Shown: positions 6,081 to 48,043 of the stretch, piece after piece | Layout of the letters: each line of letters starts with the position of its first letter | How positions within the stretch are numbered: the stretch's first letter is position 1 | Source of the DNA: an uncultured Bacilli bacterium | Lineage (GTDB): Bacteria; Bacillota_I; Bacilli_A; RF39; UBA660 | DNA: 50,027 nucleotides | Direction: 5' to 3' | Assembly: GCA_947625625.1 (NCBI GenBank) | Contig: CANQPC010000006.1 | Coordinates: 1-50,027, forward strand | Position numbers and translations under genes: made by a program | The notes under the pieces: generated by a model | What the model was told of the DNA's origin: nothing | Databases searched by the model: none | Seen by the model: the letters and a program-made list of their open reading frames with translations, nothing else

Positions 6081-6662
6081 TTATTTGACCGTCTGACGAA
6101 GTTCTGCTAATTTTTTTTGATATTTATGTCGCTTTGAAGTAATATAAGTATTTAAAAATAATGTATGAGTTGTTGCAACATTCCAAAGCTCCATAAAATC
6201 ATTTTCCATTAAATAATCTAATAAATCACTATATTCGTAAATATCATTTTCTAAAATTAAAATCTGAATTTCTTTTAGAGACTGAAAAACTTCAAAACTG
6301 TTAATAACATCAGTTACATCAAAACCGTTGTATAATTCTATTTCTCTTTTGTCGTATTGATATTTTTCAGGGTTATCTTGATGTGTAAAGTATCTATAGT
6401 ACCCTCTTACACTCTCTAATGGAATAGGTAAGGGTTGATTAAGTTCATCCATTATTTGCTTAACTGTCTTATCAGTAGTTGGACCAGTGAAAGATAATAT
6501 TATGTGATAATGGGCTTTCTTAAGTTCTCCTGTAGGGTTAACATCTTTATCATGTAAAGGACTAACGGCAAAACTAATTCCCTTTAATTTTAATATTTCT
6601 TTCCAGTCGTCTGGTGCACTTTCCGGGTAAACTACTCCACCCCAATTTCGTTTTTTTAACAT
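6081..6662 (-). CDS. rep: Rolling-circle replication initiator, RepB/Rep_2 (pMV158) family
   Basis: 193-residue HUH endonuclease that nicks the double-strand origin to start rolling-circle replication. Seen: VVYPESAPDDWKEIL and FAVSPLHDKDVN near the N-terminus, matching pMV158 RepB, the metal motif HYHIIL, and a tyrosine region GYYRYFTHQDNPEKY corresponding to the RepB catalytic-tyrosine segment (YLYLTHE in pMV158). GGAGGTTTATAAT before the ATG at 6662 fixes the start; the upstream ten codons precede this binding site. The matching nick sequence lies 40-68 bases upstream in a hairpin. It is the last gene of the phage operon. Confidence 0.9.
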   Translation of the reverse strand: MLKKRNWGGVVYPESAPDDWKEILKLKGISFAVSPLHDKDVNPTGELKKAHYHIILSFTGPTTDKTVKQIMDELNQPLPIPLESVRGYYRYFTHQDNPEKYQYDKREIELYNGFDVTDVINSFEVFQSLKEIQILILENDIYEYSDLLDYLMENDFMELWNVATTHTLFLNTYITSKRHKYQKKLAELRQTVK

Positions 6663-6701
6663 ATTATAAACCTCCATTTTATATAATTTCACATTTCACA
6701 C

Positions 6702-6730
6702 CATTGGGGGGTCGTAGTACGCCCCCAATG
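6702..6730 (-). promoter_or_regulatory. Double-strand origin hairpin with pMV158-type nick sequence
   Basis: CATTGGGGG (6702-6710) pairs with CCCCCAATG (6722-6730). On the - strand the loop reads GTACTACGAC, containing TACTACG/AC, the established RepB nick sequence of pMV158-family plasmids. This fits the Rep type encoded next to it. An A-rich tract (6743-6760 on the opposite strand) flanks it. Confidence 0.85.
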
Positions 6731-6771
6731 AAATTACACCCATTTTTTTTATTTTTTTTAAGTAGTACCAA

Positions 6772-6802
6772 ACGAAAAGCACCTATAACGGACTTTTCGT
6801 TC
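6772..6802 (-). other. Second hairpin in the phage origin region
   Basis: AACGAAAAG (6772-6780) pairs with CTTTTCGTT (6794-6802), with a further CC/GG pair in the loop. It has no adjacent T-run on either strand. It may be a single-strand origin or packaging signal. The rest of the 240-base zot-rep gap (6663-6901) shows no gene; a partial nick-like GTACTAC also lies at 6763-6769 on the - strand. Confidence 0.5.
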
Positions 6803-6901
6803 CGAATACCAATTATCTTTCCACTATGTTTGTAAATGTCTTTCGCGGCATAAATGCAGTAGCTTTATTCCACGGAACATTGACAAACAGTTAAATAGTG
6901 C

Positions 6902-7639
6902 CTAAATCTTATTTCGGTAAATAAATCTTATATCTTCTACATTTAAATCTAAACCGTTAAACTCCCCCATTTCATATAATGGCTTATCAATATTAAGTAC
7001 TTTTAAATATTTAGAATGATAAGACTTAAATACTTTACTAGATAAAAACAATGAATATTTATTTTTGACATCATAGGTCCTACTTTCTCTTCTTGGATGA
7101 TGATATTTGCCATAATCTTCTCTTTCGAAGTATCTAATGATATGCATGAATCCTATATTGATAAATGGTATATTAATAAATGTCTTTACCTTATCGAATT
7201 CAGATGCTAAAATGCAAAGCTTTTTCATAATACGACTCGGATGTTGGCTTATATAATATATATCTGAAATATCAAAATGACGGTGGAACTGATTAAAGAC
7301 CGCTATCTCTTTTGGAAAGTTCTTATACTCTTCACTATCATAAAAAGCCTGTGTCTCATCAATGATTATAAGCGCATTTTTCTTAAATCTATTATCAGGA
7401 ACTAAATCAAATATAGTAACTTTATTACTGTAAATACTTCCTAATTTAGATTTCCTATGCCGCTTTTTTAATAAAATAGGATAAGTACTATAAACATTAT
7501 TTACCCATACTTCCCTATGAAGAATCAGACGAAAGAATCTTTTCAAAAGACCATTTTCTTTTTTAAAATGTTTTAAGGCAATATATGTAGCACGGACATT
7601 TTTACCACTACCTGGAATACCACTTATACAAGTAACCAT
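6902..7639 (-). CDS. zot: Zot-like phage assembly ATPase (pI analogue)
   Basis: 245-residue P-loop ATPase that drives extrusion of filamentous phage through the membrane. Seen: Walker A GIPGSGKN (residues 7-14), Walker B ALIIIDETQAFY, and the Zot signature NQFHRHFDISDIYYISQHPS. Most Zot/pI proteins carry a membrane segment after the ATPase domain; none is obvious here, and small membrane proteins encoded just upstream may supply the anchor (inference). GGGAGAGTG sits before the ATG, which is 2 bases after the previous stop. Confidence 0.88.
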   Translation of the reverse strand: MVTCISGIPGSGKNVRATYIALKHFKKENGLLKRFFRLILHREVWVNNVYSTYPILLKKRHRKSKLGSIYSNKVTIFDLVPDNRFKKNALIIIDETQAFYDSEEYKNFPKEIAVFNQFHRHFDISDIYYISQHPSRIMKKLCILASEFDKVKTFINIPFINIGFMHIIRYFEREDYGKYHHPRRESRTYDVKNKYSLFLSSKVFKSYHSKYLKVLNIDKPLYEMGEFNGLDLNVEDIRFIYRNKI

Positions 7640-7641
7640 TA

Positions 7642-7851
7642 CTAATCACTCTCCCAAAAATTAGCACTAGCACCACTTAACTTTTTATTCTCATTTTTCA
7701 AATAAGTATTTTCTTCTTTTAATTTCTCTATCTCAAATTCACTAAAATACTTTAAATCAAAATACTTATAAAACACAAATAATATGAAACTAACTATAAT
7801 ATCAAATGATATCAAACATAATATACAGAAGAAAAAAAGTAAACCATTCAT
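7642..7851 (-). CDS. Phage membrane protein with a coiled-coil tail
   Basis: 69 residues: one hydrophobic segment (about 3-28) followed by a charged stretch (EFEIEKLKEENTYLKNENKK) that looks like a short coiled coil. GGGAGAGG lies 7 bases before the ATG at 7851, which overlaps the previous stop as TGATG, so the longer frame from 7869 is not used. Its place directly before zot suggests a partner in the assembly complex. No family recognised. Confidence 0.65.
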   Translation of the reverse strand: MNGLLFFFCILCLISFDIIVSFILFVFYKYFDLKYFSEFEIEKLKEENTYLKNENKKLSGASANFWESD

Positions 7852-8051
7852 CAGAAAAACCTCTCCCATACTCTATTAAAAATTTTAAGTGAAATATAAA
7901 TTATAAAACCCCAAAATAAGAAGAAATATAAATTAGCAGCTATCATTAAAATAGTAGTTTGATAAGAACTAAGTCCAGATAAATCTAAACTAAAAGTATT
8001 AGATAAATAAGTAATGACAACATCTGGACTATATGGAAAAAATATACTCAT
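7851..8051 (-). CDS. Small phage membrane protein
   Basis: 66 residues with one strong membrane segment (about 35-58) and a basic C-terminal end (FNRVWERFF). AGGAAGTGAG precedes the ATG. It overlaps the next gene by one base. It could be a minor coat protein of the pVII/pIX/pVI class or part of the export complex; size and place fit, sequence alone does not decide. Confidence 0.6.
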   Translation of the reverse strand: MSIFFPYSPDVVITYLSNTFSLDLSGLSSYQTTILMIAANLYFFLFWGFIIYISLKIFNRVWERFF

Positions 8052-8058
8052 TATAAAC

Positions 8059-8334
8059 TCACTTCCTATCTAAATATTTTTTAGAATGTCTACCTACATA
8101 CTCATGCTTACCTACATATCTACCAAATATTGATTCTCCTCTATCATATCTTTCATCTACTTCATCAACTACTACTACTTTAAGAAATCTAACTATAAGT
8201 AAAACCATAGGTAAGAAAATAAATACTACACACATTAAACCACCAAGAGTCATATTATGACCGATATCTATTGTAAATAACATACTAATAAACTTTACAA
8301 CTAAATTTAAAAGAAAAGATAAACATTCTAACAT
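8059..8334 (-). CDS. Phage membrane protein, two membrane segments
   Basis: 91 residues starting MLECLSFLLNLVVKFISMLF, with membrane segments at about 5-24 and 34-57 and a charged C-terminal tail (DERYDRGESIFGRYVGKHEY). GAGAGGTGG lies before the ATG at 8334; the TTG start further upstream overlaps this binding site. It ends in TGA 7 bases before the next ATG. Probably a structural or assembly protein of the phage. Confidence 0.6.
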   Translation of the reverse strand: MLECLSFLLNLVVKFISMLFTIDIGHNMTLGGLMCVVFIFLPMVLLIVRFLKVVVVDEVDERYDRGESIFGRYVGKHEYVGRHSKKYLDRK

Positions 8335-8351
8335 AAAACCACCTCTCAATC

Positions 8352-8389
8352 ATGAAGTGGCCCAAGCGCCGCTTGGGGCCACTTATCAT
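8352..8389 (-). other. GC-rich hairpin in the phage structural region
   Basis: AGTGGCCC (8356-8363) and AAGCG (8364-8368) pair with CGCTT (8370-8374) and GGGCCACT (8376-8383) with one bulged base; ATGA (8352-8355) and TCAT (8386-8389) can extend it. It is by far the most GC-rich stretch of the prophage. No T-run follows, so it is not an ordinary terminator. A packaging signal or mRNA processing/stability element is possible. Confidence 0.6.
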
Positions 8390-8535
8390 TTATCTTTGAT
8401 TAATTTTATAGGTATATAAAAAAGTTGAAACAAGAAAGTAATTAATAAAGCTCCCAAAACTAAAGTAAGAATTGCATATATAAAAGTAAATTCAGGAGGC
8501 AATTCTCCTATTAAATTTTTTACTATATCATACAT
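8386..8535 (-). CDS. Very small phage membrane protein
   Basis: 49 residues (starts MYDIVKNLIGELPPEF, ends PIKLIKDK) with one membrane segment at about 18-42 and a basic tail. AAGGAGTGTGGTTTT precedes the ATG. Size, topology and place between the adsorption gene and other small membrane genes fit a minor coat protein (pVII/pIX or pVI class), but there is no sequence proof. Confidence 0.65.
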   Translation of the reverse strand: MYDIVKNLIGELPPEFTFIYAILTLVLGALLITFLFQLFYIPIKLIKDK

Positions 8536-8548
8536 AAAACCACACTCC

Positions 8549-10108
8549 TTATAATAAAATTTTTATGATACCCAAAACAATTGCTAATGAAAAACTAGCA
8601 AACAAAATAGATTGTAAAGCTGGAGGCAATAACGCAATAAAAGCAGTAATAATATCAAATACTGAAACAATAGCACTCCATAAATCTTTAAGAAAATCTA
8701 AAGGAGAAGAAAAAACATCAGAAAAATCAAACTTTTCAGAAGAACCACTATTATAACCCTCATCTTCACTCTTATTAGAAGTATCAGTTAAATCATCAAA
8801 AGGAATAGTAGAATAACATTTCCCATCAATACATACTTCAGGATTATTTTTATTTTCTTCAGTAATGTAAGTTATATCAAAAATAGAAGTATCAACTCTA
8901 ACTATATTTTCTCTTGATTTATCATGACTTTTTAAATAATAAATAGAATGATTTTTCAAATCACTATCTAATAAGTAAGTCCTAACAGGTGTAAAATTAT
9001 CATAATAAGGACTACATCTATCTATTTGAGTACCAGGTAAAACGTCTTTTCTTTCAGTAGTTCCATAATTATAAACTGGTGTTAAACAGTACTGACCTTT
9101 TACATATACAGTAGTATTAAATTCTTTAACATTATAATCTTTAAGTGACAAAGCTACATAAGCATAATTATTTAAATTTATCTCTGCATAATTAGGAGGA
9201 AATACATCTTCTGATGGAGCAACAGAATTAATATAAGTATCTAATGTAAATCTATCATCAGAAGAAATAACTCTATGCTTACCACTAACATCGATTAATT
9301 CAAAATAAGAAGTCTTTATTCCTAAATCAGTACCATTAAACTTATAACCATTTTTAGGTGCTGGAACAATAAAATCATAATTAGAATAATAATACATATA
9401 AGGTAAATAAACTCCATTCAAAGAATAATCAAAAGTTTCAGAAGAATTAAAATTATCAATAAGATTATCTTTATCTCCATCTAAAGAAACCATCATAAAT
9501 GGAACCTCTAACATATAATTATAAATATAATTAGAACCTCCAAGAGAAGAATTAACAGCACCAAAACAATTACTATCAGAACCATATAAATATTCACCAG
9601 TACAAAAGTTAAAATTATAACCACGTTCATATAAACCAAAATAATCAAATTTATCAAGACGATAATCTAAATCACTAGAACGCATATGAAAAAAATAATA
9701 AATAAATTGACCTCTATTAGTATTAGGCTTCACATAAGAAAGTGAAGAACTACCAGATGGATAAAAACCACTCCAAGAACCAGTTAATTTTTCTTGATGA
9801 AAAAAAAGTCGAATAGTAAGACCCGGTTCACTACCTTCATATACAGAACCCCCACCACGATATACTGAAATATAGTAATAAGGATAAGTTTCTGAATAAT
9901 TACTATTATAATAAGAAACAATATCAGAAATAGCACTATTAAATCTATCTTCTCCAATCTTTTCAATAATCTCTTTTACATCCCCTCTTACATCTCCATA
10001 CTGTGGCTTAATATAAACTTCTTCAGGAACACGTAATTTAGCATAAGAAACTAATGGAATAGAAAAAATACAAAGAAAAGTAAAAGCTAAATACAATACC
10101 TTTTTCAT
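8549..10108 (-). CDS. Putative phage adsorption/minor coat protein (pIII-like)
   Basis: 519 residues: signal peptide (MKKVLYLAFTFLCIFSIPLV, cleavage near SYA-K), a long exported region rich in Tyr, Ser, Asn and Gly with several cysteine pairs (for example PEVCIDGKC), and a hydrophobic C-terminal end (about 470-519). This is the layout of filamentous-phage receptor-binding proteins that stay membrane-anchored until virion release. TAGGAGGTTGTT precedes the ATG, which overlaps the previous stop (ATGA). Function is inferred from layout and gene order. Confidence 0.6.
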   Translation of the reverse strand: MKKVLYLAFTFLCIFSIPLVSYAKLRVPEEVYIKPQYGDVRGDVKEIIEKIGEDRFNSAISDIVSYYNSNYSETYPYYYISVYRGGGSVYEGSEPGLTIRLFFHQEKLTGSWSGFYPSGSSSLSYVKPNTNRGQFIYYFFHMRSSDLDYRLDKFDYFGLYERGYNFNFCTGEYLYGSDSNCFGAVNSSLGGSNYIYNYMLEVPFMMVSLDGDKDNLIDNFNSSETFDYSLNGVYLPYMYYYSNYDFIVPAPKNGYKFNGTDLGIKTSYFELIDVSGKHRVISSDDRFTLDTYINSVAPSEDVFPPNYAEINLNNYAYVALSLKDYNVKEFNTTVYVKGQYCLTPVYNYGTTERKDVLPGTQIDRCSPYYDNFTPVRTYLLDSDLKNHSIYYLKSHDKSRENIVRVDTSIFDITYITEENKNNPEVCIDGKCYSTIPFDDLTDTSNKSEDEGYNSGSSEKFDFSDVFSSPLDFLKDLWSAIVSVFDIITAFIALLPPALQSILFASFSLAIVLGIIKILL

Positions 10109-10830
10109 AACAACCTCCTAAAAATAAGTCTAAAAATAAATATCAAAATGAAAATAACTATAATTGATAAATAAATATAATTGCTTGAAATAACATCACA
10201 TAAATAAAGTAACTTATCTATAACTAACATATAAAACGAAGTAACTTTCTCAGTCTCCTCTTTATGAACTAAATCATCATCTCCTATAAATTCATTATAC
10301 TTTTTATAAAAATCATACAAAGTAGGAAATATATCATTTTTTTTAACTTCATAAGTAAAATCTTTATATTTTAAATTTATAATCTCATCAGAAGTATATA
10401 TTAAATCAATATTACTAAATAAAATCATACTAACAAAATCATCAGAATCATAAAATAAAAAACCATGACCAATACCACTACTACCACCAGAAAAAGAATC
10501 AACGTTTAAGGAAAAACGTTTATAACGATAAGTACACCACCATCTCAAATTAGTACTATAAGAAAGATATTGAGTATTTAATGTGGAAGAACCAGAGGAA
10601 CCAATAGAATAAAAATAATATTTACCATCTTCAAAATAAATAACATAATTATTAGATAAAGAATCATCACTTTCTATATATGCTTTAAATTCTTTTTCTT
10701 GTTCTAATAAATCTTCATTTATTAAGTTCAAATAATCATCAGGAATAACAACATCTAAGGCTTTAACATTTGAACTTAATAAAAAAAAGGAAGATATAAC
10801 AAAAGTCATTATAATAAATAATTTCTTCAT
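10105..10830 (-). CDS. Exported phage protein with C-terminal anchor
   Basis: 241 residues starting MKKLFIIMTFVISSFFLLSS: signal peptide with cleavage near VKA-LD, an exported domain, and a C-terminal membrane segment (YIYLSIIVIFILIFIF) followed by Arg residues. AAAGGAAGTGTAACA before the ATG at 10830 fixes the start; the TTG start at 10848 lies inside this leader. It is translationally coupled to the 519-residue protein. It is probably a second minor coat protein or a pVI-like partner. Confidence 0.6.
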   Translation of the reverse strand: MKKLFIIMTFVISSFFLLSSNVKALDVVIPDDYLNLINEDLLEQEKEFKAYIESDDSLSNNYVIYFEDGKYYFYSIGSSGSSTLNTQYLSYSTNLRWWCTYRYKRFSLNVDSFSGGSSGIGHGFLFYDSDDFVSMILFSNIDLIYTSDEIINLKYKDFTYEVKKNDIFPTLYDFYKKYNEFIGDDDLVHKEETEKVTSFYMLVIDKLLYLCDVISSNYIYLSIIVIFILIFIFRLIFRRLL

Positions 10831-10848
10831 TGTTACACTTCCTTTCAA

Positions 10849-18042: not shown

Positions 18043-18801
18043 TTATATAATAAATTTGGCTAACATAAATAATACTCCTACCGAGAAAAATATTATCAAA
18101 TACTTACTGTTATTATATTTTTTAGCGGTTGGCAGTAGTTCACAGAAAGATATTTGTAACATGATTCCCGCAATTATGGAAAATAAAATTCCCAGTACTA
18201 AGTCACTCATAATTTTTCTTAAAAACAAAAAGGCTAATAGAGCTCCAAAGGGTTCTGACAATGCGGAAACTAAGGTATATAATAGAGCCGTTTTTTTACT
18301 GCCCGTCGAATAATACAGTGGAATGGAAATACTTATGCCTTCGGGAATATTATGCATAGTAATAGCGATAAAAAGAGCTAAGCCTAATTTTGTATCACTA
18401 GTAGTTGCGATAAAAGTAGCAATTCCTTCGGGAATATTATGTAAAATAATAGCAATCATCGAGATTATTCCTACTTTAAAAAGAGAACTATTCTTTTCGT
18501 TAGCAATAGGTCTTTCAGGTAGATAATAATCAATTATCATCGAAATAGTGGCTCCTAGTAATATACCTAGTAAAGAGATTAAAATTAGACTTATTCCCGT
18601 TAGACTCTCACGAAGTAATTTTATACCTTCGGGTACTAAATCAGTTACCGAAACAGTAATCATAACTCCTGCGGCAAAAGCTAAAGATGATAAAATTATT
18701 TTTTCATAATTTTTATTTTTAATAAAGATAATAACTGTTCCAATCATCGTCGATAAGCCCGCCATCGTCGTTAAAATAAATGCCAATAAAGTTGTATTCA
18801 T
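18043..18801 (-). CDS. ZIP-family divalent metal transporter (ZupT/GufA type)
   Basis: 252 residues with eight predicted membrane segments. The two metal-binding signatures are both present: LHNIPEGIATFIA and TMHNIPEGISISIPL, with the later SEPFGALLAF helix. Members import zinc, and often iron or manganese, across the cell membrane. GTGGTGATAAT precedes the ATG. Metal preference cannot be read from sequence. A manganese riboswitch elsewhere in the window shows that the cell senses Mn, but nothing links it to this gene. Confidence 0.88.
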   Translation of the reverse strand: MNTTLLAFILTTMAGLSTMIGTVIIFIKNKNYEKIILSSLAFAAGVMITVSVTDLVPEGIKLLRESLTGISLILISLLGILLGATISMIIDYYLPERPIANEKNSSLFKVGIISMIAIILHNIPEGIATFIATTSDTKLGLALFIAITMHNIPEGISISIPLYYSTGSKKTALLYTLVSALSEPFGALLAFLFLRKIMSDLVLGILFSIIAGIMLQISFCELLPTAKKYNNSKYLIIFFSVGVLFMLAKFII

Positions 18802-29198: not shown

Positions 29199-30083
29199 TT
29201 ATAATGGCAAAGCTTGTTTGCTATTTACTTTATTTTCAATATATTTAAGATTGTTAAATGACTTGTTATTTTTTAATAGTTCCATTTGCTTTCTTGCTAT
29301 GTTATTTAATTTAGTAAGTCTGTCACTTTGTGGTATTTTCATTTCAATTAATTCGGCATTAATATTTTCAAGATTATTTAAGATAACTAAATGTAGTAAA
29401 TCAGTATAATCTCTAATATTTCCTTTATCTGCTATTTCAGGATTACTTTCTCTCCATTCTTTAGCAGTCATTCCAAATAAAGCAACATTTAAAACATCTG
29501 CTTCTTCTGCATATACAAATTTCTTTTGTTTTTCAGTTAAAGTAGGTACAATTATACTTTTAATAGCATCTGTATGAACTACATAGCTTACTTTAGCTAA
29601 AACTCTATTAGCATGCCAATCAATTTTATTTTGATATGCTTCGTTTTTCTTTAATCTTTCAAATTCAGTAATTAAATAAAGTTTAAATTCAGGAGAAAGC
29701 CAACTTGCAAATTCAAAAGCAATATCAGAATGAGCAAATGTTCCTTGACTATATTTACCGCTACTTGGAACTATACCAATAGCATTAAATTTTTCTTTCC
29801 ATCTTTTAGGTGTCATAGTAAATCTGTTATATGGAACTTCTTCATTTTTAATTACGTGGGATTCCACGGAATTAAAATTAGGATTATTTATTTCTTCCCA
29901 CAATGAGTAAAATTCAAATGAGTTTTTATTTGACATCCAGTTTCTTATAACACCAGATGGATCTTCTTTATTTACATATCTAGCTAAATCAGTTAGCGAT
30001 ATATATTCTTTATTATCAATTATCATAACATTAACTTTTTGCCCTTTTACTATTATTTCGGCTTTTATATTGTCTTTATTCAT
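29199..30083 (-). CDS. KilA-N domain protein (phage-type)
   Basis: 294 residues. N-terminal strand region (KAEIIVKGQKVNVMIIDNKE), then the KilA-N core with YISLTDLARYVN, IRNWMSNKNSFEFYSLWE, and GTFAHSDIAFEFASWLSPEF; the C-terminal part is helical. KilA-N genes are DNA-binding proteins of phages and mobile elements. A decayed paralogue lies upstream. Both sit 3' of two tRNA genes, so they may be leftovers of an element once inserted there (inference). Confidence 0.75.
   Translation of the reverse strand: MNKDNIKAEIIVKGQKVNVMIIDNKEYISLTDLARYVNKEDPSGVIRNWMSNKNSFEFYSLWEEINNPNFNSVESHVIKNEEVPYNRFTMTPKRWKEKFNAIGIVPSSGKYSQGTFAHSDIAFEFASWLSPEFKLYLITEFERLKKNEAYQNKIDWHANRVLAKVSYVVHTDAIKSIIVPTLTEKQKKFVYAEEADVLNVALFGMTAKEWRESNPEIADKGNIRDYTDLLHLVILNNLENINAELIEMKIPQSDRLTKLNNIARKQMELLKNNKSFNNLKYIENKVNSKQALPL
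29500..29666 (-). repeat. Direct repeat shared with the KilA-N pseudogene
   Basis: 167 bases nearly identical to 30238-30404 (offset 738), with only a few mismatches. Marks a recent duplication or gene conversion between the two KilA-N copies. Confidence 0.8.
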
Positions 30084-30184
30084 GAATCACATCCTTTCTA
30101 TCATTGAATAAAGTTTCTTAATTATTTATTTTATCACATATCTGTTATTTTTAATCAAATTATCTCTCAAATCATCATCTTTTT

Positions 30185-30715
30185 TGTTCTATAAAAATCT
30201 TCAGCTGCTTCATCAGTTACATATTTAAATGCTTAATGCTTCTTCTGCATATACAAATTTCTTTTGTTTTTCAGTTAAAGTAGGTACAATTATACTTTTA
30301 ATAGCATCTGTATGAACTACATAGCTTACATTTGCTAAAACTCTATTAGCATGTCAATCAATTTTATTTTGATATGCTTCGTTTTTCTTTAATCTTTGAA
30401 ATTCTTGAATAACATACAATTTAAACTCAGGGCTTAACCAAGAGACGGCATTTTAAAAGTGTTACTTCCAGCTTCATTTTTAAACGTGTCGAATTCGCCC
30501 CCTTTAAAATTTTCGTTATGTATACTTTCCCATAATCCTAAATAAGAAATTACTTCTTTGCTTCTCATCCAATCCCTAATAGGAAGTCTTGGTTCATCAT
30601 TATCTGCATATCTAGCCAAATCTGTAAGAGAAATATATTCTTTATTTCCTATTCTTATTACATTAATTTTATTATTATTCACATTAATTTCTGATTTTAT
30701 TATTTCTTTATTCAT
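30185..30715 (-). pseudogene. Decayed KilA-N paralogue
   Basis: The N-terminal part (30715 down to 30434) starts MNKEIIKSEINVNNNKINVI with GAGGGGGG before the ATG and has the intact YISLTDLARYAD and IRDWMRSK blocks. It then loses about 90 codons by deletion and goes out of frame. The later part (30404-30238) is nearly identical to the intact gene but carries TGG to TGA in the IDWHANRVL stretch, then fuses to unrelated coding-like sequence (30237-30185). Clearly broken. Confidence 0.82.
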
Positions 30716-30816
30716 ATTTTCCCCCCTCAATTACTAAGATTATTATGTCATAAATTATTGAATAATAAAACTCGAACTTATCAAATAATTTAAAAAGTCC
30801 GAGTTTAGTATCTTTC

Positions 30817-43602: not shown

Positions 43603-44271
43603 TTATGCAGCATTTTGATAATGTTCTTGTATTTTTTTGAGTGTTTTTTTCTCACTTCGCGAGATACTAACTTGATTTTTGCCTAATATATTAGCTACTT
43701 CACTCTGTGTCTTATCTTCATAATAGCGCAGATAAATAATTCTTTTTTCTTCGGGAGGAAGATTTTGTAGTTCCTCTCTAAGTAACATAATATCTATATC
43801 GTAGTAATCTTTTTTATCTTGAATAGTTTCTTTTAAAGTAATATCTTTTCCATCATTATAAATTACTCTATCGATACTTTCCGTTCCCAGCGATAAATTA
43901 TATACTGAAGAAATAATATCTGGTTCTACTTCGAGGAAACTAGCTAATTCTAAAATATTAGGTTCTTTCATGAGATGCTGACTTAAAATACTTCTAGCTT
44001 CGTTAATTTTTTTAAGCAAAGTAGCATTTTCTTTCGATACTTTAATCATTCTACTCTTATTTATATAAGCATAAATTTCTCCGTAAATATACTTGAATGC
44101 ATAAGTTGAAAATTTAGCATTTTGTCCTTCTTTATAGTTATCATAAGCTTTTATTATTCCTATTATTCCTACTTGATAAAGATCTTCGACATCATAGTTA
44201 TAAAAATATTTCTTTATTATCATATAGACCATTCCACTACAAGCATCAATGACTTCATCATATTTATTCAT
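43603..44271 (-). CDS. Sporulation-type sigma factor (SigF/SigG/SigB group)
   Basis: 222 residues. Region 2 (DVEDLYQVGIIGIIKAYDNY, then FSTYAFKYIYGEIYAYINK), region 3 (MKEPNILELASFLEVEPDII) and region 4 helix-turn-helix (KTQSEVANILGKNQVSISRSE) are all present, as in SigF, SigG and SigB; region 1 is absent. AAAGGATG precedes the ATG, which follows directly on the STAS stop. In spore formers sigF follows spoIIAA and spoIIAB; here spoIIAB is missing. No matching -35/-10 targets were identified by eye. Confidence 0.85.
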   Translation of the reverse strand: MNKYDEVIDACSGMVYMIIKKYFYNYDVEDLYQVGIIGIIKAYDNYKEGQNAKFSTYAFKYIYGEIYAYINKSRMIKVSKENATLLKKINEARSILSQHLMKEPNILELASFLEVEPDIISSVYNLSLGTESIDRVIYNDGKDITLKETIQDKKDYYDIDIMLLREELQNLPPEEKRIIYLRYYEDKTQSEVANILGKNQVSISRSEKKTLKKIQEHYQNAA

Positions 44272-44577
44272 CTAAATCATCCTTTCAAATAATTTAAAGG
44301 CATCATATTCATTATCTATTTTAGGTATTTCTTTTAATAACTTTTTAGAAGCATTAAATTTATCACAGATAATAATCTTAGCTTTTTTTCTTTCAAATAT
44401 TCGATATAATTTATTTATATAATCGATACTGTAACTATCTATTGAGTACATATCGTTGATATTTAAAACAATATATTTAAAATCATCAAATGTAACATTC
44501 TTAATCGTATTTTTATTTAAATCACCTTTCACTCTTATAAAAAGTATACCTCTTTGAAACTCCATACTAGTTTTTAA
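44272..44577 (-). CDS. STAS-domain protein (SpoIIAA-like anti-anti-sigma factor)
   Basis: 101 residues starting (GTG) MLKTSMEFQRGILFIRVKGD. The STAS fold is suggested by the LFIRVKGDLN strand, YIVLNINDMYSIDSYSIDYI and KAKIIICD. The usual DSSG phosphorylation loop reads DSYS: the Asp-Ser is kept, the next Ser-Gly is changed. GAGGTGAAGAAAGA precedes the GTG at 44577. TATAAT at about 44630 on the - strand with TTGTCT 16 bases before is the likely promoter. Coupled to the sigma gene with no gap. Confidence 0.75.
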   Translation of the reverse strand, partial: LKTSMEFQRGILFIRVKGDLNKNTIKNVTFDDFKYIVLNINDMYSIDSYSIDYINKLYRIFERKKAKIIICDKFNASKKLLKEIPKIDNEYDAFKLFERMI

Positions 44578-44655
44578 CACTCTTTCTTCACCTCGTTTAT
44601 AATTTAGCATATTTTTAGTTTTAATTATACCGTTTCGACAAATGTAGACAAAAGT

Positions 44656-45741
44656 TTAATTCGACATTTTTTGCATTTTTACTATGAATATGACAATAAT
44701 TCCCGAAATTAAAAGGGGAATTAGAGACAAAAGATAAGCTAATTTTCTTTTCCCATGTCCTTTATAACCAGTTTCCACTACTTCCTCAAAAGCTTTCTCA
44801 TCTAATATTTCAGAAGGAATATTATTGCCAGAATTAAGTTCTAGATCGTTCGAATCTTCCTCGGGAATAATTTCATCTTCTAGCTTTAAGTATTTGTAGT
44901 ATACTTTATAATCAGCTTCATCCTTTACGTACGAAGAATCATCCACCGAAGTATGATAATTATTATCATAATACTTTTTATTTAAATTGTAGCGGTATGT
45001 CAATATTTCTTTTTCGATACACATTTCCTTTTCTTCCAAAGGGTATTTAACATAATCCCTCTCTACCTTCTCATCTGAATAATATGTCTCTTTGAAATTA
45101 TTATATTGATAACTATAATCATCTATCAAATATTCATTCTTCATTGATGATAGTATTTTATTAATTATCTGTATAGAATTTTCGTCATAGAAATAAGCAT
45201 AATAAGCAAAGCTATTAGTATTTTCCTGTTCGACGACAAGCCTAATATTTCCTACAGTTAATGGCTCGTCAAAAACTATCGACATACTACCGCCAGCTTT
45301 AATTGTAGTGCCGCTACAAGTAGTACAGTTTTTTATATCGTAGCTTACTTTCTCCTCATTATAATAAATATCAATCTTTTTAATATTCAAATTACTTGGT
45401 ATATTTCCTAATTTTAAATATTTTGCCTTTGGAATAATCTTATAAGGGTATACTATCTTTTTTTCGACAATAACATTATCATTCCCAGCCGAGCAGCTAT
45501 CTTTATAATCGCCAATATTACGATAAATTATGTCATCATTATCTTCATAATCATATTTATCATTTACCTCTCCTTTCTTAAAATAATCCCCTTCTTTTTC
45601 CTCTCGATAAAATCGAAATCTCTTTTCTTCTGCCAATATTTCTCGTCCGTCTATCTTCTCATCACTCCAAAAATATTCTAGAGCATGTACTCTAGATAAA
45701 CTGATGATAAAAATAAAGGCAACTAATATTATTTTTTTCAT
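44656..45741 (-). CDS. Exported protein with C-terminal anchor, unknown
   Basis: 361 residues: signal peptide (MKKIILVAFIFIISLSRVHA-LE), a large acidic, Tyr- and Lys-rich exported domain with a CTTCSG pair and several other cysteines, and a C-terminal membrane segment (YLLSLIPLLISGIIVIFIV). AAGGAGGAAAAAG precedes the ATG. It takes the place between dacF and spoIIAA-like genes. No sorting motif. No family recognised. Confidence 0.6.
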   Translation of the reverse strand: MKKIILVAFIFIISLSRVHALEYFWSDEKIDGREILAEEKRFRFYREEKEGDYFKKGEVNDKYDYEDNDDIIYRNIGDYKDSCSAGNDNVIVEKKIVYPYKIIPKAKYLKLGNIPSNLNIKKIDIYYNEEKVSYDIKNCTTCSGTTIKAGGSMSIVFDEPLTVGNIRLVVEQENTNSFAYYAYFYDENSIQIINKILSSMKNEYLIDDYSYQYNNFKETYYSDEKVERDYVKYPLEEKEMCIEKEILTYRYNLNKKYYDNNYHTSVDDSSYVKDEADYKVYYKYLKLEDEIIPEEDSNDLELNSGNNIPSEILDEKAFEEVVETGYKGHGKRKLAYLLSLIPLLISGIIVIFIVKMQKMSN

Positions 45742-45795
45742 CTTTTTCCTCCTTCATACTTATATACAACTTTTTTTTCAAAAATTCCCAAGTTT

Positions 45796-45834
45796 TACGA
45801 AAAAAAATAAAAAAAGATCTAAAAATTTAGACCT
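45796..45834 (-). terminator. Terminator of the dacF-like gene
   Basis: On the - strand AGGTCTAAA pairs with TTTAGATCT (45834 down to 45815, one G-T), followed by two T-runs. The stop codon lies in the stem. Confidence 0.82.
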
Positions 45835-46970
45835 TCTGTCAAAATATCGCGAATATTTCGCATTAGAACAGTGAAAAAATCTGCTTTATCTATATTTTTA
45901 CTTACGGTTGCATCAATTGAAGATATCTTTTTACCATCCTCGATAATATCAATTATTCCTACTTTATCTCCTACTTTAACAGGAGCAATTATTTTATCAA
46001 TCTTAGCTTCATAAGTTATATTTCTTGAATTTTCACTTTTTTTACTCAAAATAGTAATAGCCTCTTTAGGAACAATATCGGCTTCTAATTCCTTTCCTAA
46101 TTCTACTTTAGCTTTCTGAATCATTGTATTTTTACTGATAATATTTTTAACCATATAAATATTATAACCATAATCGAGCATTTTAGTAGTATCGGCACTT
46201 CTTTCATTACTACTAGGTTCATTCATAACTACTGTGATTAAGCGCATATTATCTTTTTTAGCAGTCGCGGTAAGACAATAGCCTGCCGTATCGGTAAAAC
46301 CAGTCTTTAATCCATCTACTCCCTGATAAAACTTGACAAGGCGATTAGTATTGACGAGCCAAAACGGACTAGAACTATCTTTTCGTAAGTACTCCTCATA
46401 AGTTCCGGTAAATTCTAATATTTTTTCGTGTTTAACTAATTCTTTAGCAATTATCGACATATCGTAGGCACTCGAGTAATGATTATCGATATCTAACCCA
46501 GTAGCATTAGAAAAATGGGTATCTTTTAGCCCTAAATCTTTTACTTTATCATTCATCTTTTTAACAAAAGATTCTTCACTTCCCGCTACTCGTTCGGCCA
46601 TAGCGACAGTAGCGTCGTTTCCCGAGCCGATAGCTATGCCTTTTAGCATCTCTGTCACGGTCATTTTTTCTCCGGGCTCTAAAAAGATTTGACTTCCACC
46701 CATACTAGAAGCATAAGGAGAAGCAGTTATTTTCTCGTCCCATTTTAAATTACCTTTTTCTATTTCTTCCATAATTAAAAGCATACTCATCATCTTTGTC
46801 ATCGATGCAGGTGCAAGTCTTTCATGAGCGTTTTTTTGAAATAAAATTTCCCCAGTTGATGCTTCGATCATAATTGCTGCTTTAGCATTAGGAGCTAAGT
46901 CTTCGATATCTTCAGCATATACTATTGTTACTGAAAAAAAGAATAAAAAGAAAATAAATATTTTTTTCAC
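45819..46970 (-). CDS. D-alanyl-D-alanine carboxypeptidase (DacF/PBP5 type)
   Basis: 383 residues: signal peptide (about 1-19), S11 peptidase domain with S56-x-x-K59 (PASMTKM), SGN motif (IGSGNDATVAMAE) and KTG motif (GLKTGFTDTAGYC), then a C-terminal PBP5-like beta domain (about 275-370). It trims the last D-Ala from peptidoglycan. Start is the GTG at 46970 after AGGTGATATGT. In B. subtilis dacF lies upstream of spoIIAA-spoIIAB-sigF; the neighbourhood here is similar. A leader hairpin (CTTTTATT/AATAAAAG, 47008-47028) precedes it. Confidence 0.92.
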   Translation of the reverse strand: MKKIFIFFLFFFSVTIVYAEDIEDLAPNAKAAIMIEASTGEILFQKNAHERLAPASMTKMMSMLLIMEEIEKGNLKWDEKITASPYASSMGGSQIFLEPGEKMTVTEMLKGIAIGSGNDATVAMAERVAGSEESFVKKMNDKVKDLGLKDTHFSNATGLDIDNHYSSAYDMSIIAKELVKHEKILEFTGTYEEYLRKDSSSPFWLVNTNRLVKFYQGVDGLKTGFTDTAGYCLTATAKKDNMRLITVVMNEPSSNERSADTTKMLDYGYNIYMVKNIISKNTMIQKAKVELGKELEADIVPKEAITILSKKSENSRNITYEAKIDKIIAPVKVGDKVGIIDIIEDGKKISSIDATVSKNIDKADFFTVLMRNIRDILTEGLNF

Positions 46971-47173
46971 ACATATCACCTAATAAAAATTATGCAAGTA
47001 TTTGTCTTTTATTCTCCAAATAAAAGCCCTATAATCAAATTAAATTTTTACCATTATAGACAAATATTAATTATACTAAACATAACCAATAGTATTTATT
47101 TATATTATTAGTTTCTTTAATTTTCTTTGTTTGACTATTTTCTAATTAATATTCGTTATAAAATCTTTTTAGC

Positions 47174-47208: not shown

Positions 47209-47240
47209 TATTTCTATAATTTTTATTTTTTTACTTTTTT

Positions 47241-47807
47241 TTAAGGTTGATTTTCTTTAGTGTATGTCGAGTCAAAAGCACCTTGTTCGATAGTATTATA
47301 ATCATTTTCTTCAGTATTATAAGTTACTATATAACTACCAGCTAAACATACTGCATATGCACCCCAAACTGTCATTATCATTACATTTTCATCCACTTGT
47401 GTAAGTAATCTAGAATCATCTACTGGCGTCCAGTCTATACCATTGTTATTCATTATATAAGTTTTAAAAAATCTATCTTTTTTAACTATGTATTGTTCGT
47501 TTGATGTACTTGATATGTTAGTTACTACAATATCTATGCCTTCTTCTCTTTCTTTTACGGTACTTTCTTCCTCTCTTAATATGTACTCTTTTCCATCTAC
47601 AAACGTTTTTAGTACAGTATGTATTTTTTCTCCTACTTGACCTTGTCTAGCTTGAACGACACCATTCTTATATGCATAAAATTTCCTATCTTCTGGTATT
47701 GTAGCTAAATATTCTCCAATTTTATCATTTGGTATTACCTTACACTCTACTTCTAAATCTGGATATTCTTCAGGATGCATACTTTTTAAAATTATTTTTA
47801 CTTTCAT
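47241..47807 (-). CDS. Protein of unknown function under a Mn riboswitch
   Basis: 188 residues, soluble, no signal peptide. One moderately hydrophobic stretch (VMIMTVWGAYAVCLAGSYIV, about 142-161) might be a buried strand-helix or a single membrane segment. The N-terminal half is strand-rich (VKIILKSMHPEEYPDLEVEC, FYAYKNGVVQARQGQVG). AGAAGGAGAGTG precedes the ATG. It lies directly after a yybP-ykoY-type leader. It does not resemble MntP, TerC/YoaB, UPF0016 or P-type ATPases usually controlled by this riboswitch. No family recognised. Confidence 0.65.
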   Translation of the reverse strand: MKVKIILKSMHPEEYPDLEVECKVIPNDKIGEYLATIPEDRKFYAYKNGVVQARQGQVGEKIHTVLKTFVDGKEYILREEESTVKEREEGIDIVVTNISSTSNEQYIVKKDRFFKTYIMNNNGIDWTPVDDSRLLTQVDENVMIMTVWGAYAVCLAGSYIVTYNTEENDYNTIEQGAFDSTYTKENQP

Positions 47808-47874
47808 ATTTTTTCACTCTCCTTCTATTATTTCCTTTTTATTTCTTCTCTTTTAAATGTGTGAAAATCTTGAA

Positions 47875-47924
47875 AAGTAAAAAACAAGACTAACACACAT
47901 CAAATATTGTGTGAAAGTCTTGTT
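47875..47924 (-). terminator. Riboswitch expression-platform terminator
   Basis: On the - strand AACAAGACT (47924-47916) with CACACA pairs with TGTGTG and AGTCTTGTT... ending at 47883 and followed by six Ts. Its 5' arm contains the last strand of aptamer helix P1, so aptamer and terminator exclude each other. Confidence 0.85.
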
Positions 47925-48007
47925 CAATAATATTATTATTTAGTCCGAATGTTATACATTGAGGTGACAACTAAATCCATCTTATATGGTAACTACTCCC
48001 TTTCAAC
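47912..48007 (-). ncRNA. yybP-ykoY manganese riboswitch aptamer
   Basis: P1 TGAAAG (48005-48000) pairs with CTTTCA (47917-47912). Then the conserved AGGGAGTAG loop, P2 (CCAT/ATGG), P3 (ATTTAGT/ACTAAAT) holding TTGTCA and TTCGG (TCGTCA and CCGG in the L. lactis RNA), a short P4 (AATAAT/ATTATT) and the conserved CAAGACTTT end (CAAGACCTTT). Order and spacing match the known Mn2+ aptamer throughout. Mn2+ would stabilise P1, block the terminator and switch the 188-residue gene on. Confidence 0.88.
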
Positions 48008-48014
48008 GACACAT

Positions 48015-48043
48015 ATAATGACACCCAAAGCCAATTTTGTCAA
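48015..48043 (-). promoter_or_regulatory. Promoter of the riboswitch transcript
   Basis: On the - strand TTGACA (48043-48038), 17 bases, TGT-CATTAT (48020-48015); RNA would start about 48008, exactly at the aptamer's 5' edge. Confidence 0.75.

Follow-up and report, generated by a model that had tools for sequence, protein, structure and literature searches.

Members of the yybP-ykoY riboswitch class are known to precede cation-transport genes (PMC7266159), among them yrbG in Vibrio vulnificus (PMC13274385). In crystal structures, A41 of the Lactococcus lactis RNA and A48 contact Mn2+ (PMC6754395). P1.1 of the L. lactis riboswitch is stabilised by Mn2+; failing that, its 3′ segment is taken up into a terminator (PMC11087558). 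Control of Escherichia coli mntP is described as translational and Rho-dependent (PMC11647493). Here we describe a leader of this class found in a stretch of 50,027 nucleotides (hereafter, the window) from an uncultured gut bacterium of the Bacilli. A sequence-only reading had placed at 48043-47241 of the minus strand a manganese riboswitch followed by a gene for a protein of unknown function; these coordinates are correct, and the promoter, leader, terminator, ribosome-binding site and open reading frame of 188 codons were all found there (Table 1). The best explanation of the locus, to which we assign a probability of roughly 75%, is a yybP-ykoY Mn2+ riboswitch acting by transcription antitermination in front of a likely accessory Mn-stress protein within a wider regulon.

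The first homologous leaders (L006 and L013) were obtained by blastn against relatives, with most matches discarded as low-complexity AT stretches paired with each other. A pattern derived from three leaders was then applied to 386 genomes of the window's bacterial family; it picked out 17 homologous leaders, spread over 16 genomes, whereas the reversed pattern matched none. The covariance model R1 (see below) identified 30 leaders, distributed over 24 of the 291 family genomes scanned, all with E ≤ 1.5e−5. Sixteen leaders of the family make up alignment A1, on which a structure consisting of P1, P1.2, P2, P3.1, P3.2 and P4 was written by hand, being derived by comparison; the covariance model built from A1 alone is referred to as R1. 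The hand-written structure pairs 86.9% of cells in the 16 leaders, a percentage that leans towards the structure because it was written on the same alignment. Covariation counts are stronger evidence: 22 of the 30 pairs changed on both sides among the 16 leaders (P4 being the weakest helix), and covariation reached 0.305 versus 0.142 in shuffled alignments, none of 500 shuffles scoring as high. The signal was lost when partners were slid by 1-3 columns. Plain RNA folding prefers the terminator over the aptamer and does not recover the latter; folded alone, the aptamer is no better than shuffled sequences. The layout of the promoter recurs immediately 5′ of nearly all related leaders.

Table 1. 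Features of the riboswitch locus and of neighbouring regions of the window
Feature	Position	Strand	Details or evidence
Sigma-70-type promoter	48043-48015	-	TTGACA 48043-48038, 17 nt, TG-CATTAT 48020-48015; 10/12 consensus positions
yybP-ykoY-class aptamer (P1, L1, P1.2, P2, P3.1, L3, P3.2, P4)	48007-47911	-	R1, 82.8 bits, E = 4.2e−17 in own genome
L1 5′ strand, GGGAGUAG	47993-48000	-	GGAGUA invariant, 64/64 leaders
L3 5′ strand with preceding U, U-GUCACCUC	47961-47969	-	Includes A47965; P3.1-closing C missing
L3 3′ strand, CGG	47945-47947	-	Leader alignment
Switching strand CAAGAC (aptamer L1 3′ strand and terminator 5′ arm)	47917-47922	-	Continues into CUUUC of P1
Intrinsic terminator, ACAAGAC..GUCUUGU, then U-tract	47879-47923	-	−19.0 kcal/mol, z = −7.0
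Ribosome-binding site, AAGGAG	47819-47824	-	11 nt 5′ of ATG; sequence
Gene of 188 codons (apparently cytosolic beta-protein, weakly PGDYG-like)	47241-47807	-	ORF
Remnant KKVKK codons 3′ of stop	47226-47240	-	Homologues run on with a basic tail, e.g. QKKLKK; TAA here
DUF285 leucine-rich-repeat protein, 615 residues	48145-49992	-	
Row of four genes ending in a sporulation-type sigma factor	43603-46979	-	
KilA-N protein and truncated second copy	29199-30730	-	
ZIP-family metal transporter	18043-18801	-	
Rolling-circle Rep (Rep_OBD) and Zot-family ATPase	6081-10848	-	

Several neighbouring features of the window can be recorded in their own right. The leucine-rich-repeat protein encoded directly 5′ of the leader is probably surface-exposed. 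The row containing the sigma factor also encodes a D-Ala-D-Ala carboxypeptidase, an unnamed protein and a weak STAS-domain protein, and resembles dacF-spoIIAA-sigF without a spoIIAB gene. The two KilA-N copies lie beside two tRNA genes, a possible scar of a mobile element, while the Rep and Zot-family proteins, with adjacent membrane proteins, probably belong to an integrated filamentous-phage-like element.

For assignment of the leader to a class, the sequence-only reading had proposed a search with the Rfam model RF00080. No match was obtained even at E ≤ 10 in the window leader or in its own genome, and nothing usable came from L006, L013 and the 291 family genomes. However, RF00080 gives the proven mntP leader of E. 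coli 41.6 bits against its own gathering cut-off of 45, and the E. coli alx leader is absent from its matches at E ≤ 10 in E. coli K-12. In the alignment of release 15 (L081, L082) the P1 strands are unpaired, the model having no helix at P1. Since mntP falls short of the cut-off and alx goes unlisted, although both are proven members, the silence of RF00080 here is not a valid refutation; RF00080 is a poor instrument for this question.

R1, run unfiltered on 6.5 kb of E. coli DNA, detected both mntP (32.2 bits, E = 1.2e−6) and alx (23.5 bits, E = 1.9e−4), the third-best match scoring 6.8 bits. Leaders matching R1 occur in 57 of 247 genomes of the bacterial class. When 64 leaders, including alx, were aligned jointly, GGAGUA and AGA of L1 proved invariant, and an equivalent of the Mn2+-contacting L3 adenosine was present in 61, including that of the window (A47965), which corresponds to L. 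lactis A41. Because R1 finds mntP, alx and leaders of cation transporters throughout the class, with a shared L1/L3 core, the window leader is, by homology, a yybP-ykoY riboswitch, a divergent but clear member of the known class. The sequence-only reading thus assigned the class correctly.

The overlap of aptamer and terminator noted in that reading was borne out as well: in each of the 38 leaders checked, the 3′ strand of L1/P1 doubles as the terminator's 5′ arm. Given this dual role, ligand binding is expected to switch the gene on, as that reading foresaw. In the absence of Mn2+, CAAGACUUUC (47922-47913) would pair with the downstream GUGUGUUAGUCUUGU, forming the terminator at which RNA polymerase stops. 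In excess Mn2+, L1 (GGGAGUA/AAGA) would dock on L3 (GUCA..CGG) and stabilise P1, so that the aptamer would retain CAAGACUUUC, allowing synthesis of the 188-residue protein. We infer both Mn2+ as the ligand of the window copy, by homology, and the ON direction in vivo.

The sequence-only reading had also held that the leader matches the aptamer in every conserved block. This is true of L1, the A41 equivalent and CGG, but not of the C that closes P3.1 beside L3, which is present in 63 of 64 leaders and missing only from the window; at this place the two orthologous leaders closest to it read UCGUCAAUUC, against UGUCACCUC in the window. In the Xanthomonas oryzae structure the P3.1-closing pair is the A-minor receptor of A10 (PMC6754395), the correspondence being that given by our alignment. 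As the closing C adjoins the L1-L3 docking site, the response of the window switch may be weakened; alternatively, the missing C may be an assembly error, and a U·G pair may substitute for the missing C-G. The window protein has in addition lost its basic C-terminal tail through a single TAA, past which the match to homologues runs on. Together, the missing C and the lost tail could reflect relaxed function or an assembly error.

The protein encoded behind the leader has no Pfam, NCBIfam or PHROG family above cut-off. As the sequence-only reading stated, it lies outside the known Mn exporter families searched with Pfam and NCBIfam (MntP, TerC, UPF0016, P-type ATPase, CDF and Na_Ca_ex). No metal-binding signature stands out. 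Inspection by eye found no signal peptide or transmembrane stretch, so that a cytosolic location is likely and a surface location unlikely. Of the roles suggested in that reading, a new manganese-response protein is plausible because eight of nine close homologues keep the leader, and a part in Mn tolerance is conjectural.

A first single-sequence search with the protein produced no convincing relatives, and homologues were obtained through the leader and profile searches. Nine distinct close homologues, at least 54% identical, were distinguished (the window, L038/L094, L044, L095, L096, L097, L067/L100, L069/L098 and L099). The leader precedes eight of them, the window included, while L099 has no detectable leader. 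More distant homologues (L087-L093 and L101) are also without it, L041 being the exception. Judged from these sequences, no fewer than eight related bacteria of the gut have kept leader and gene together. The dN/dS values, 0.17-0.31 (about 0.2 versus the nearest homologues), show purifying selection on the protein. One copy, L044, carries an in-frame TAA that breaks the gene.

AlphaFold2 produced confident beta-rich models with pLDDT of 88.7 (5 sequences) and 93.3 (14 sequences); we describe the product as soluble, rich in beta structure and apparently cytosolic. In the structure search proposed by the sequence-only reading, Foldseek retrieved for neither model a solved structure from the PDB at E ≤ 1e−3, and PDB sequence searches gave chance matches only. 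A second look with VIA gave no more than Z ~3, partly to small SH3-like barrels, and we claim no fold. On the other hand, five viral proteins of no known function matched the model at E ≤ 0.001, with E-values from 1e−9 to 5e−7. These phage and giant-virus proteins (BFVD A0A345MMK3, A0A2I2L347 and others) have a similar predicted fold over ~170 residues, with TM-scores of 0.57-0.61, but are only 16-24% identical to the window protein. For the homologue L089, records of phages and plasmids yielded no match. There is also a weak likeness to PGDYG (PF14083), matched by the window protein at E = 0.096 and by four of 14 homologues (best E = 0.0095). With 13.5 bits for the window protein against the Pfam gathering cut-off of 27, we treat it as a weak lead and do not claim membership; a literature search found no paper naming PGDYG. 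Judged by its regulation alone, the protein is most likely an accessory Mn-stress protein that would act through binding of a protein or a ligand.

In the window's bacterial family we examined the genes that follow 35 leaders, the window included. Four precede transporters, namely three Na_Ca_ex exchangers and one P-type ATPase (L070 and L072 by Pfam scan, L073 and L074 by 77-80% identity to L070), and the other 31 precede non-transport genes. Among the latter are members of the 188-residue family, proteins of the SPFH and NfeD types, a peptide deformylase, nucleoside-deoxyribosyltransferase-like proteins and several lipoprotein-like proteins that look like surface lipoproteins; many have no Pfam family. 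Outside the family but within the bacterial class, genes were read behind 24 of 26 loci (L102-L127). Pfam identified ten P-type ATPases and five Na_Ca_ex exchangers, to which sequence similarity added two P-type ATPases (L125, L126) and an exchanger (L115). The remaining loci comprise two CNNM/CorC proteins (L105 by Pfam, L107 being near-identical to it), one CitMHS, one Na/Pi cotransporter, one OAD_beta and one SPFH. Transport-type genes thus make up 23 of 24 outside the family versus 4 of 35 inside (Fisher p = 2.6e−11), a value that is overstated because R1, trained on leaders of non-transport genes, biases the family search towards such leaders, and because related leaders are not independent.

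In the window's own genome no Na_Ca_ex or MntP protein was found, and its five P-type ATPases have no leader (best R1 score 13.5 bits, E = 0.17). The ZIP-family transporter of the window likewise has no riboswitch, a single leader being all that R1 detects in this genome. SPFH proteins of the stomatin/flotillin type recur behind the riboswitch in unrelated genomes (L047, L037 and L118), in one case with NfeD, and a literature search found no paper linking yybP-ykoY with flotillin, SPFH or NfeD genes. The adenosine of L3 that contacts Mn2+ is replaced by U in L061 and L063 (1501-1596, plus strand) and by G in L064 (1501-1589, plus strand). All three leaders precede lipoprotein-like genes, and they are candidate natural variants of metal specificity. 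Tentatively, and at odds somewhat short of even, we propose that in this family of gut Bacilli the Mn2+ riboswitch runs a wide-ranging Mn-stress programme, carried out mostly by uncharacterised soluble, lipoprotein and SPFH proteins, in which the 188-residue family is recurrent and a few copies carry a changed discriminator base for another ion.

Such changed bases bear on an alternative for the window itself, namely that its leader is a yybP-ykoY variant sensing another divalent ion, which would account for the unusual downstream genes. Variants of this kind are expected where genes are inconsistent with Mn2+ (PMC7266159). The discriminator is indeed altered in the family (U for A in L061 and L063, G for A in L064), and most genes behind family leaders do not encode Mn exporters. 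We nevertheless regard this as unlikely, since the window leader and its orthologues retain the A41 equivalent, the L1/L3 core is common to leaders of P-type ATPases and exchangers, and the same family also places the riboswitch before P-type ATPase and Na_Ca_ex transporters. Slightly less probable again is that the class is right but the window copy is decaying and no longer switches, leaving the gene at a low, terminator-limited level. That would fit the P3.1-closing C missing from this one leader of 64, the KKVKK end of the protein lost to a stop, and the in-frame TAA of the related copy L044. Yet the promoter, terminator overlap, L1, A41 equivalent, CGG and ribosome-binding site are intact, the reading frame is open over 188 codons with dN/dS of about 0.2 versus the nearest homologues, and a U·G pair could stand in for the missing C-G.

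An ordinary attenuator or terminator resembling yybP-ykoY by chance would agree with the silence of RF00080 and with the unremarkable folding of the isolated aptamer. It can be given next to no credence, being already refuted by homologous leaders that covary, present in 24 of 291 genomes of the family, the independent R1 matches to mntP and alx, and the leaders of cation transporters across the bacterial class. We retain the Mn2+-responsive antitermination switch as the preferred reading. Because this class of RNA has a known ligand, each conserved gene behind such a leader becomes a candidate for a role in the Mn response, for which an assay already exists, and the window points to a family of uncultured gut Bacilli whose leaders mostly precede non-transporter genes without a Pfam name. 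As RF00080 misses both proven and new members, annotation based on it undercounts the regulon.

Compared with described systems, the window leader resembles that of L. lactis yoaB in its four-helix layout, in L1 (GGAGUA/AAGA) and L3 (GUCA..CGG), and in a P1 3′ strand common to the terminator, with a transcriptional ON switch predicted for the window (PMC6754395, PMC11087558). It differs in lacking the P3.1-closing C and in that its gene does not encode a P-type ATPase. In addition, its P1 helix (GGG/CUUU) is one pair shorter than that of L. lactis (GGGG/CCUUU). The mntP and alx leaders of E. coli are both detected by R1, and alx has UCGUCAUUACG..CCGG in common with the window, but these leaders precede Mn exporters. 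What is new in the present locus is the conserved pairing of the riboswitch with a soluble protein of no known family, together with the unusual regulon to which it belongs.
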